Source: Actibacterium sp. MT2.3-13A
GTDB lineage: Bacteria > Pseudomonadota > Alphaproteobacteria > Rhodobacterales > Rhodobacteraceae
DNA: 64,000 bases
Direction of reading: 5' to 3'
Assembly (NCBI RefSeq): GCF_018139985.1
Contig: NZ_JAGSOU010000002.1
Span: forward strand, 124,001-188,000
Shown here: piece by piece, positions 44,398-46,914 of the stretch
Numbering within the stretch: position 1 is the stretch's first letter
How the letters are laid out: each line of letters opens with the position of its first letter
Position numbers and translations under genes: made by a program
Notes under the pieces: model-generated
What the model was told of the DNA's origin: nothing
Databases searched by the model: none
Seen by the model: only the letters and a program-made list of their open reading frames with translations

Positions 44398-45888
44398 TCA
44401 GCGGCGCTTGAGCAGGGTGCCGAAAAGGCCCCGCACGAGGCGGCGGCCGGTGGTGCCCTTGAGTTCCTTGACGAGCGCGGTTTGCAGCGCCGAGGCGAGC
44501 GTGTCGTCGGCAGGCGGTTCGCGGCGACTGCGGCCGCCGGAATAGCGGCGCGCGGCGCTGAATTCGCGCGGGGCGGTTTCGGTGGCGGCCTGAGCGGCCC
44601 GGCGGGCCAGCATCTCATGGGCGGAGTCGCGGTCGAGGCGGGTCTCGTATTTGCCGGCCAGCGGCGAGGCGGCGATCAGCCGCGCGCGCAGGTCCGGATC
44701 GATCGGGCCGAGCTGGCTGGCGGGCGGGCGGATCAGCGTGCGCTCGGCCATGCCGGGGGTGCCCTTGCGCTCCAGCAGGGAGGTGACGGCCTCGCCCACG
44801 CCGACCTCGCGGATCGCGGTTTCGATGTCGAAGCGGGGGTTGTCGCGGTAGGTCTCGGCGGCGAGGCGCAGCGCCTTGCGGTCGCGCGCGGTGAAGGCGC
44901 GCAGCGCGTGCTGGATGCGGTTGCCGAGCTGACCGAGGATGTCCGCGGGCACGTCGGCGGGGTTCTGGGTAATGAAATAGACCCCCACCCCCTTGGAACG
45001 GATCAGGCGGGCCACCTGCTCGACCTTGTCGATCAGCGCCTTGGGGGCGTCGTCGAACAGCAGATGCGCCTCGTCGAAGAAGAAGACCAGTTTCGGCCTG
45101 TCGGGGTCGCCGACCTCGGGCAGTTCTTCGAACAGCTCCGACAGCAGCCACAGCAGGAAGGTGGCGTAGAGCCGCGGCGCGGCCATCAGCTTGTCGGCGG
45201 CGAGGATGTTGACCCGCCCCCGCCCGTCGGCATCGCGCAGCATCAGGTCGGAGAGCGCCAGCGCCGGCTCGCCGAACAGCTGCGCGCCACCCTGGTTCTC
45301 CAGCACCAGAAGCCGGCGCTGAATGGCGCCGATCGAGGCCGCCGAGACATTGCCGTAGCGCAGGCTGAGCGCGGCGCGGTTCTCGCCCACCCAGACCAGC
45401 AGCGATTGCAGGTCCTTGAGGTCCAGCAGCGGCAGGCCCTGTTCGTCGGCCACGCGGAAGGCGATGTTCAGGATGCCCTCCTGCGGCTCGCTCAGCTCCA
45501 GCAGGCGCGAGATCAGCAGCGGGCCCATTTCGGCCACGGTGGTGCGGATCGGGTGGCCCTGTTCGCCGAAAAGATCCCAGAAGGTGACCGGCGCGGCGCG
45601 GTAGGACAGGTCGAGCCCGATGGTCTGCGCGCGTTTCGTGAAGGCGTCGTGGAGCTTGAAGTCGACCGAGCCGGCCGCCCCCAACCCGGAGAGATCACCC
45701 TTCACGTCGGACAGGAAGACCGGAACACCCGCGGCCGAGAACCCCTCGGCCAGGATCTGCAGGGTCACCGTCTTGCCGGTGCCCGTGGCCCCCGCGATCA
45801 GGCCGTGCCGGTTGGCATATTCCAGCAACAGGTTCTGCGCCAGCGCATAGCCCTCGCCGCCGCCGCCGATGAACACCCCGTCCGCCAT
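44398..45888 (-). CDS. HerA-like ATPase (DUF853, YjgR family)
   Basis: The 496-residue protein belongs to the HerA/FtsK superfamily. It has the Walker A AGATGTGKTVTLQ near residue 35, Walker B LVFFFDEAHLLFDD near residue 245, and the conserved SKGVGVYFITQNPADVP and GNRIQHALRAFT segments. The C-terminal ~80 residues are basic and low in complexity, ending RGLFGTLLKRR. The family is widespread and its substrate is unknown; unlike HerA-NurA pairs, no nuclease is adjacent. AGGAGGGG precedes the ATG at 45888. Confidence 0.9.
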   Translation of the reverse strand: MADGVFIGGGGEGYALAQNLLLEYANRHGLIAGATGTGKTVTLQILAEGFSAAGVPVFLSDVKGDLSGLGAAGSVDFKLHDAFTKRAQTIGLDLSYRAAPVTFWDLFGEQGHPIRTTVAEMGPLLISRLLELSEPQEGILNIAFRVADEQGLPLLDLKDLQSLLVWVGENRAALSLRYGNVSAASIGAIQRRLLVLENQGGAQLFGEPALALSDLMLRDADGRGRVNILAADKLMAAPRLYATFLLWLLSELFEELPEVGDPDRPKLVFFFDEAHLLFDDAPKALIDKVEQVARLIRSKGVGVYFITQNPADVPADILGQLGNRIQHALRAFTARDRKALRLAAETYRDNPRFDIETAIREVGVGEAVTSLLERKGTPGMAERTLIRPPASQLGPIDPDLRARLIAASPLAGKYETRLDRDSAHEMLARRAAQAATETAPREFSAARRYSGGRSRREPPADDTLASALQTALVKELKGTTGRRLVRGLFGTLLKRR

Positions 45889-45942
45889 GTCGCGCCCCTC
45901 CTGCCTGTCGCGATGCGCCCGGCTCCACCATACAATCTTAAC

Positions 45943-46047
45943 GCCGCCGTGCCAGTCTGCATGCACCGGAGACGGCCGCGTCCTGCGGCCGGGCCGGGCT
46001 TCCTCCCTGTGGGACTGGCCGCGCCGCATCCGGCGCGGTCTTTTTTT
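45943..46047 (+). ncRNA. Candidate small RNA with anti-Shine-Dalgarno motif
   Basis: TACAAT at 45931-45936 is a good -10 box, so transcription would start near 45943. The predicted transcript (about 105 nt) has GCCAGTC (45951-45957) pairing with GACTGGC (46013-46019), an internal hairpin CGGCCGC-GTCCT-GCGGCCG, an exposed CTTCCTCCC (45999-46007), and a strong terminator. No coding gene lies upstream on this strand; the neighbour starts at 45888 on the other strand. CTTCCTCCC is the known loop motif of CcsR/cuckoo-type alphaproteobacterial sRNAs. The exact start is inferred. Confidence 0.65.
46019..46047 (+). terminator. Intrinsic terminator of the first small RNA
   Basis: CCGCGCCG (46019-46026), loop CATC, CGGCGCGG (46031-46038), then TC and seven T residues: a textbook Rho-independent terminator on the plus strand. 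Confidence 0.9.
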
Positions 46048-46086: not shown

Positions 46087-46115
46087 TTGACGGGTTGGGG
46101 CAAAGGCCGTAGCGT
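46087..46115 (+). promoter_or_regulatory. Candidate promoter for the second small RNA
   Basis: TTGACG (46087-46092), 17 bases, then TAGCGT (46110-46115). The -35 is strong and the -10 weak. Transcription would begin near 46122. Confidence 0.4.
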
Positions 46116-46121
46116 CACGTT

Positions 46122-46191
46122 CAATGACTAAGTCGGCCAGTCCGACGGGGAGAACACACTTACGGAAAGGGGCCGTTCCGCGGCCCTTTTT
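46122..46191 (+). ncRNA. Candidate second small RNA
   Basis: The predicted transcript of about 70 nt has one small hairpin (GTCGG-CCAGT-CCGAC, 46132-46146), a linker with GGGGAG, and a terminator hairpin. It begins about 75 bases after the terminator of the first small RNA and ends about 125 bases before the IalB gene. A 30-codon frame from 46124 runs through the terminator hairpin and has no ribosome site, so I do not regard it as coding. Confidence 0.5.
46166..46191 (+). terminator. Intrinsic terminator of the second small RNA
   Basis: AAAGGGGCCG (46166-46175), loop TTCCG, CGGCCCTTTT (46181-46190) and a further T. The stem has one G-U pair and runs into the T tract. Confidence 0.85.
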
Positions 46192-46317
46192 CTCGTTGGT
46201 GACAGGCCCGGCGTAAAACCGCCGTGATCGCCCGTCCCGTCCGGGATTTCGGCCTGACACCGCCGGGCCCGCGTGATACATCGGCCCCGATGAAAATTCT
46301 CAGAAGGCAAAGATGAC

Positions 46318-46914
46318 ATGCGTGATCTTTTCAAGACCCTGATCTGCGTTCTGGCCCTTGGCGCGGCGACGCCGGCATTGGCCCAGGACGCGGCAGCACC
46401 GCAAGCCGATCCCACCCTCTCGTTGGGCCAGCAGGAGGGCGAAGACAAGGTCGGCACCACCTATGTCAAGGAAGAGCACGGCGACTGGCAACTGCGCTGC
46501 GTGCACGCGCCCGAGGGTCAGACCGATCCCTGCCAGCTCTACCAGCTGTTGTCGGATGCGGAGAACAACCCGACCGCCGAGATCAGCGTCTTTGCCGTGA
46601 ACGGCGAGCAGGGCGCGGTGGCCGGCGCCACCATCGCCACGCCGCTGGAAACGCTGCTCACCCAGCAGCTGCGCCTGGCCGTCGATGCCGGCAAGGCCAA
46701 GGTCTACCCCTTCACCTGGTGCAGCCAGGCGGGATGTTTCGCCCGCGTCGGCTTCACCGCCGAGGATCTGGCCGCGCTCAAGGGCGGCTCGAAGGCGACC
46801 CTGACCATCGTGCCGATGGCTGCGCCCGACCAGACCGTCGACCTCGACATTTCGCTGAAGGGCTTCACCGCCGGCTTCGACGCGGTGCGCGCGAACAATC
46901 TGCCGGCCAAGTGA
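46318..46914 (+). CDS. Invasion-associated locus B (IalB) family protein
   Basis: The 198-residue exported protein has a signal peptide ending PALAQD and the IalB domain with the conserved HGDWQLRCV, a set of cysteines (C-x in RCVHA, PCQLYQ, WCSQAGCFARVGF) likely to form disulfides, and a C-terminal DISLKGFTAGFDAV. In Bartonella the family contributes to erythrocyte invasion, but it is common in free-living alphaproteobacteria, where the function is not known. AGAAGG precedes the ATG, and a terminator follows. Confidence 0.88.
   Translation: MRDLFKTLICVLALGAATPALAQDAAAPQADPTLSLGQQEGEDKVGTTYVKEEHGDWQLRCVHAPEGQTDPCQLYQLLSDAENNPTAEISVFAVNGEQGAVAGATIATPLETLLTQQLRLAVDAGKAKVYPFTWCSQAGCFARVGFTAEDLAALKGGSKATLTIVPMAAPDQTVDLDISLKGFTAGFDAVRANNLPAK

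Follow-up and report, generated by a model that had tools for sequence, protein, structure and literature searches.

A conserved anti-Shine-Dalgarno small RNA gene of Rhodobacteraceae in tandem with a probable sponge RNA

Small RNAs (sRNAs) that display an anti-Shine-Dalgarno (anti-SD) motif come in several described kinds in Alphaproteobacteria. SorX (RF02784) of Rhodobacter derives from the 3' UTR of ompR-1, and SorX-like sRNAs act in trans (PMC8625941). The alphaR8 family, which comprises MmgR and SisA-D, is characterized by a terminator and by the 10-nt single-stranded segment UUUCCUCCCU behind a hairpin (PMC12559287). The cuckoo RNAs, which carry a C-rich anti-SD motif, are found in the same bacterial class (PMC10253847). 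Such regulators can themselves be controlled by RNA. In Caulobacter, it has been experimentally proven that CrfA sequesters the anti-SD sRNAs SisA-D via their anti-SD core (PMC12559287). StsR of R. sphaeroides, a 72-nt, Hfq-bound RNA under the control of RpoHI/RpoHII, pairs with the sRNA UpsM as well as with rpoE mRNA and owes its name to the targeting of an sRNA (PMC8307010).

Here, we analyse a locus at which an anti-SD sRNA gene, termed RNA1, is followed on the same strand by a second and complementary sRNA gene, RNA2. The window, the whole 64-kb stretch of DNA that was analysed, is part of a 3.6 Mb genome, and the sampled relatives and named homologues belong to the Rhodobacteraceae. RNA1 is a conserved sRNA, new to Rfam and probably with a known mode of action, placed in tandem with a probable sponge. 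No description of a tandem of anti-SD sRNA and sponge was found in the literature searched, and published sRNA lists from Rhodobacteraceae (Ruegeria pomeroyi, PMC4809877; Paracoccus, PMC5107571) may contain RNA1 or RNA2 under a number.

The RNA1 gene and its structure

RNA1 is a real, conserved small RNA gene of about 100 letters with homologues across the Rhodobacteraceae (Table 1). It sits in the plus-strand gap between a divergent HerA-like ATPase gene upstream and an ialB-like gene downstream, and the first-pass annotation was right that this gap holds no coding gene on the RNA1 strand and that no DUF1127 gene stands beside it, the neighbours being HerA_C (PF05872) and IalB (PF06776) genes. 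The same two genes flank RNA1 at nearly all loci with blastn matches. At one locus (L188; G075:C4, ~1426534), RNA1 and RNA2 stay paired ahead of ialB and fabF, and an open frame resembling catalase takes the place of the HerA-like gene. Elsewhere in the window, the minus strand at 31209-31385 matches the Ruegeria sRNA Cis52 (RF02647 Cis52_sRNA) with 136.8 bits, where the cut-off is 56.

Table 1. Coordinates of the features at the RNA1-RNA2 locus (window numbering)
Feature	Position	Strand	Remarks
HerA-like ATPase gene	44401..45891	-	PF05872 (HerA_C), 703.6 bits; start ~45891; divergent neighbour of RNA1
Conserved block upstream of RNA1	45929..45944	+	Consensus ATACANNNTTAACC, window CATACAATCTTAACGC; holds -10-like TACAAT at 45931-45936
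RNA1	45943..46047 (about)	+	Start inferred from -10-like box, end from terminator; covariance model and syntenic homologues
Conserved 5' TGCCAGTCTG of RNA1	45950..45959	+	Pairing with 46013-46019 drawable, stem unsupported
Internal hairpin of RNA1	45966..45997 (about)	+	Fold of window copy; covariation in homologues
Anti-SD CTTCCTCCCT of RNA1	45999..46008	+	Near-invariant, mostly unpaired
RNA1 segment CTCCCTGTGGGACTGGCC	46003..46020	+	Complementary to RNA2 46135-46152
Intrinsic terminator of RNA1	46017..46047	+	Strong; fold and covariation
RNA2 promoter	46087..46115	+	TTGACG 46087-46092, 17 nt, TAGCGT 46110-46115
RNA2, second sRNA gene	46122..46193 (about)	+	Start inferred, end from terminator
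RNA2 conserved core GGCCAGTCCGACGGGGAG	46135..46152	+	Complementary to RNA1, SorX, SorY-like and C17 sRNAs
RNA2 terminator stem-loop and T run	46165..46193	+	Terminator region mean z -3.71
ialB-like gene	46318..46914	+	PF06776 (IalB), 126.6 bits; conserved downstream neighbour

Plain blastn finds RNA1 in 21 of 61 relatives, with matches mostly to the 3' half. A covariance model (R1), built from 13 homologues with the window left out of training, recovers the window copy at 45944-46045 with 36.7 bits and an E-value of 9.8e-8. A broader set of 124 distinct loci was assembled from the blastn matches of RNA2, present in 168 of 296 family genomes, together with the earlier RNA1 loci. In 97 of these, the same strand holds a core resembling TTCCTCCCTGTCAGACT at a distance of 100-217 nt upstream, and the covariance model adds RNA1 at 15 more, some with a diverged core, so that RNA1 co-occurs with RNA2 at 112 of 124 loci; as the loci were picked by similarity to RNA2 or RNA1, these fractions hold for recognisable RNA2/RNA1 loci rather than for all genomes. 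The original call of a new small RNA is upheld in part, in that RNA1 is a separate gene with its own terminator, conserved in place in most of the family genomes examined and below the Rfam gathering thresholds. Exact copies of the RNA1 core or the RNA2 core were not found in viral contigs.

The start near 45943 is placed by reading TACAAT as the -10 element. This box, proposed in the first-pass annotation, is present in the window, but its final T reaches just 46% conservation and the 92 aligned loci reveal no conserved -35 box to partner it, a point against the reading of the locus that is favoured below. Within the same alignment, ATACA is 84-95% and TTAA 99-100% conserved, and the TTAACC located 3 nt behind ATACA, which resembles a CtrA half-site, is 84-100% conserved and better kept than TACAAT. 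Because ATACA is also retained at some loci without RNA1, part of the upstream block may serve the divergent gene.

The structure of RNA1 is under selection. Across 96 copies, whole-structure covariation reaches 0.580, compared to 0.199 in shuffled alignments (0/500) and 0.04-0.11 when the pairing partners are slid. All nine pairs of the internal hairpin exhibit two-sided compensatory changes, with 90.9% of cells paired in the 96 homologues, as do seven of the eight terminator pairs, with 99.1% of cells paired. The alignment was fitted to the structure and so favours it; folding each sequence separately constitutes an independent test and agrees, with a mean z of -2.39 for the internal hairpin region folded alone and of -4.3 for the terminators, both over 97 sequences. 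A structure-aware alignment is needed because a plain MAFFT alignment misaligned the hairpin, leaving RNAalifold to see the terminator alone. An origin of the hairpins by chance, in a gap rich in GC, would fit the window copy by itself, whose folding energy is unremarkable and not significantly better than that of shuffles (z -1.35), yet homologues and synteny speak against this explanation and the covariation test refutes it, leaving it scarcely credible.

Both the internal hairpin and the strong terminator had been predicted at first pass, and compensatory changes back both. They do not extend to the third stem then proposed, which would close the RNA by pairing GCCAGTC (45951-45957) with GACTGGC (46013-46019). 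Although this closing stem is possible on paper, the minimum-energy fold of the window copy does not contain it. The 96 homologues offer no compensatory change in its favour, and 73.2% of its cells are paired in them compared to 73.5% in shuffles.

The anti-SD described as exposed in the first-pass annotation is indeed accessible. The motif CTTCCTCCC occupies 45999-46007. Averaged across 97 homologues, the anti-SD has an unpaired probability of 0.72; for the window copy, the mean is 0.66. Among these homologues, CTTCCTCCCT occurs in 73 and TTTCCTCCCT in 15. The exact complement of CTTCCTCCC, AGGGAGGAA, occurs only once in the 64 kb, and candidate target sites matching AGGGAGGAA with one mismatch are not enriched in the window.

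Kinship with described small RNAs

No Rfam family matches RNA1 at gathering thresholds. A permissive scan (to E 10) places SorX, SorY and suhB/mmgR closest to it, all under their cut-offs. The SorX model scores 33.2 bits over its full length on the window copy (E 2.6e-6) and up to 39.1 bits on syntenic homologues of RNA1, against a cut-off of 46.6. The two RNAs share a 3' module, CCUCCCUGU-NGACUGG, placed immediately ahead of a GC-rich terminator; RNA1 differs from SorX in its locus, in its upstream half and in being its own gene rather than a 3' UTR product. Run against the whole genome that contains the window, the SorX model first retrieves the true SorX orthologue (G000:C11:330619, 90 bits), followed by a SorY-like RNA, RNA1 itself in third place (E 4.6e-6) and a fourth locus on contig C17. 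SorX-type RNAs occur in 283 of the 296 family genomes.

Similar relationships connect RNA1 to the two other families. The SorY model (RF02651) gives 23.9 bits (cut-off 111), and SorY and RNA1 have in common the 3' module CCUCCCUGUUGGACU plus terminator. Two further sRNA candidates, L160 (G000:C51:61950-62027) and L162 (G000:C17:29301-29382), display CACCTCCCTGTTGGACT plus a terminator; the former is SorY-like and, at 47.3 bits, a better SorY match than RNA1, and the latter is the unnamed C17 RNA. The suhB model of alphaR8/MmgR (RF00519) scores 21.7 bits in the window and does not exceed 27.4 in homologues, whereas its cut-off is 41. The layout of RNA1 matches the alphaR8 description, with CUUCCUCCCU or UUUCCUCCCU at the same place: the CUUCCUCCCU of the window agrees with the alphaR8 10-mer at nine of ten positions, and the exact UUUCCUCCCU is found in 15 of 97 RNA1 homologues. 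The usual neighbour of alphaR8/MmgR is an N-formylglutamate amidohydrolase gene, whereas RNA1 neighbours HerA_C and IalB genes. Exact copies of CCTCCCTGTNNGACT number four in the whole genome, one each at the SorX, SorY-like, RNA1 and C17 loci, and a reversed-pattern control occurs nowhere. Judged by sequence, the shared 3' module at four loci and the matches to the SorX model place RNA1 among a group of anti-SD sRNAs that have one 3' module in common, formally outside each of the named families.

The first-pass annotation had instead tied the motif to CcsR/cuckoo-type RNAs, a kinship that does not hold up, since the permissive scan lists SorX at E 2.6e-6 but nothing of the cuckoo type. RNA1 and CcsR1-4/cuckoo RNAs are both alphaproteobacterial, share a C-rich anti-SD motif and would likely both depend on Hfq, and one could picture RNA1 as a cuckoo-type RNA that lost its DUF1127 gene. 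However, motif and architecture differ, the motif of RNA1 lies in a linker before the terminator and not in repeated hairpin loops, and the free-standing layout, with HerA ATPase and IalB genes on either side at nearly all loci, is itself conserved. Such an origin is thus very improbable.

RNA2 and its complementarity to RNA1 and sister sRNAs

The earlier annotation missed the adjacent gene for RNA2, an RNA of about 70-75 nt complementary to RNA1. The promoter pattern TTGAC-N17-TA[GA]CGT precedes it in nearly all 124 loci, and a looser pattern (TTGA-type -35, TA...T -10) in 124 of 124, with a spacing of 17 in 123 and of 18 in one. The conserved 5' domain consists of a hairpin, GUCGG-CCAGU-CCGAC, followed by RGGGAG. 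Over the 124 loci, the core AAGTCGGCCAGTCCGACRGGGAG is almost invariant; the near-invariant core sequence GGCCAGTCCGACRGGGAG complements the anti-SD region of RNA1 and three sister sRNAs of the genome.

The arrangement invites an explanation in cis, in which both RNAs belong to the leader of ialB as attenuators, comparable to UpsM in the dcw leader, with no role in trans. Both RNAs do lie upstream of ialB on its strand at nearly all loci, and UpsM demonstrates that leader terminators can yield sRNAs in Rhodobacteraceae (PMC5089854). Against it, each RNA has a promoter-like region and a terminator of its own, and what stays invariant is single-stranded sequence for pairing, which recurs in SorX and SorY at other places in the genome. 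SorX-like sRNAs are known to act in trans (PMC8625941). We consider a pure leader function improbable.

Because terminators dominated the duplexes formed by full-length RNA2, its 5' domain alone was used to evaluate pairing. Its predicted duplex with RNA1 has an energy of -44.0 kcal/mol, which none of 300 shuffles equals, and those with SorX, the SorY-like RNA and the C17 RNA reach -41.0, -44.4 and -38.6 kcal/mol, equalled by at most one of 300. The complementarity of RNA2 to several sibling sRNAs hence exceeds chance; with Cis52 and the mraZ leader, by comparison, pairing is no better than with shuffles. Over 112 loci, cognate RNA1-RNA2 duplexes average -39.3 compared to -26.9 for shuffles. 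Swapped pairs average -39.5, equal to cognate ones. The two RNAs thus show no coevolution specific to their locus, a result that fits an RNA2 serving a whole set of sRNAs and not a single partner.

Several observations weigh against RNA2 as a sponge. Cognate pairs are no better than swapped ones, and the RNA2 core is able to fold on itself as a hairpin that competes with pairing. RNA2 is also kept at 12 loci where neither motif nor covariance model detects RNA1 (L031, L039, L058, L072, L073, L080, L090, L100, L101, L109, L128 and L131), and it is unchanged at three loci where the core of RNA1 has diverged, so RNA1 cannot be the sole reason for its existence.

It may be that RNA2 has been described before, under the name StsR. 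At about 70-75 nt it is close in length to StsR (RSs0827, 72 nt), and if the two are the same, RNA2 might act on UpsM/dcw and rpoE mRNA, with its complementarity to RNA1 and SorX secondary. A GUUGGAC in the mraZ leader can pair with the GUCCGAC of RNA2; overall, however, pairing of the 5' domain with this leader does not exceed that of shuffles in either of two genomes, and RNA2 could sponge RNA1 even if it is StsR. In G075, the genome with the best SorY, no match to RpoE or ChrR is found, and G075 is accordingly not taken as R. sphaeroides. A principal role as StsR with RNA1 and SorX in second place appears unlikely, if a more serious contender than the cis explanation. The mraZ/UpsM leaders at two loci (L179, L190) hold a GUUGGAC like that of SorX.

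A putative regulator and its sponge

Because RNA2 is conserved and its 5' domain is complementary to RNA1 and its sisters, the two RNAs probably form a regulator-and-sponge pair. We favour with some confidence the reading in which RNA1 represses in the manner of SorX and alphaR8, and RNA2 sponges RNA1 and its siblings. RNA1 would be transcribed from its own free-standing gene and act in trans as an Hfq-type sRNA of the anti-SD kind known from Alphaproteobacteria (SorX/SorY/alphaR8-like), whose hairpin and terminator would keep CUUCCUCCCU single-stranded. This segment is predicted to pair with the Shine-Dalgarno regions of mRNAs, blocking their translation. The 5' domain of RNA2 would in turn bind the anti-SD and the following bases of RNA1 and its sister sRNAs, and, by analogy with CrfA, RNA2 might sequester them whenever it is made, relieving the block at ribosome sites.

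RNA1 represents a conserved sRNA family missing from Rfam with strong structural evidence. The SorX and SorY RNAs of Rhodobacter-type bacteria share one anti-SD module, and a conserved complementary RNA beside a further member of their set could be a common control knob. More tentatively, and with the balance tilting slightly against it, the tandem could be a Rhodobacteraceae-wide unit of anti-SD sRNA and sponge, the latter serving RNA1, SorX, the SorY-like RNA and others, such that a single locus sets the activity of all SD-blocking sRNAs in the cell.

Such a control knob would parallel CrfA and the Sis RNAs in Caulobacter. In both cases the anti-SD core that several sister sRNAs share finds its complement in a second RNA. 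RNA2 differs from CrfA in lying directly behind one of its presumed clients, and the likeness proposed between the two is one of role.
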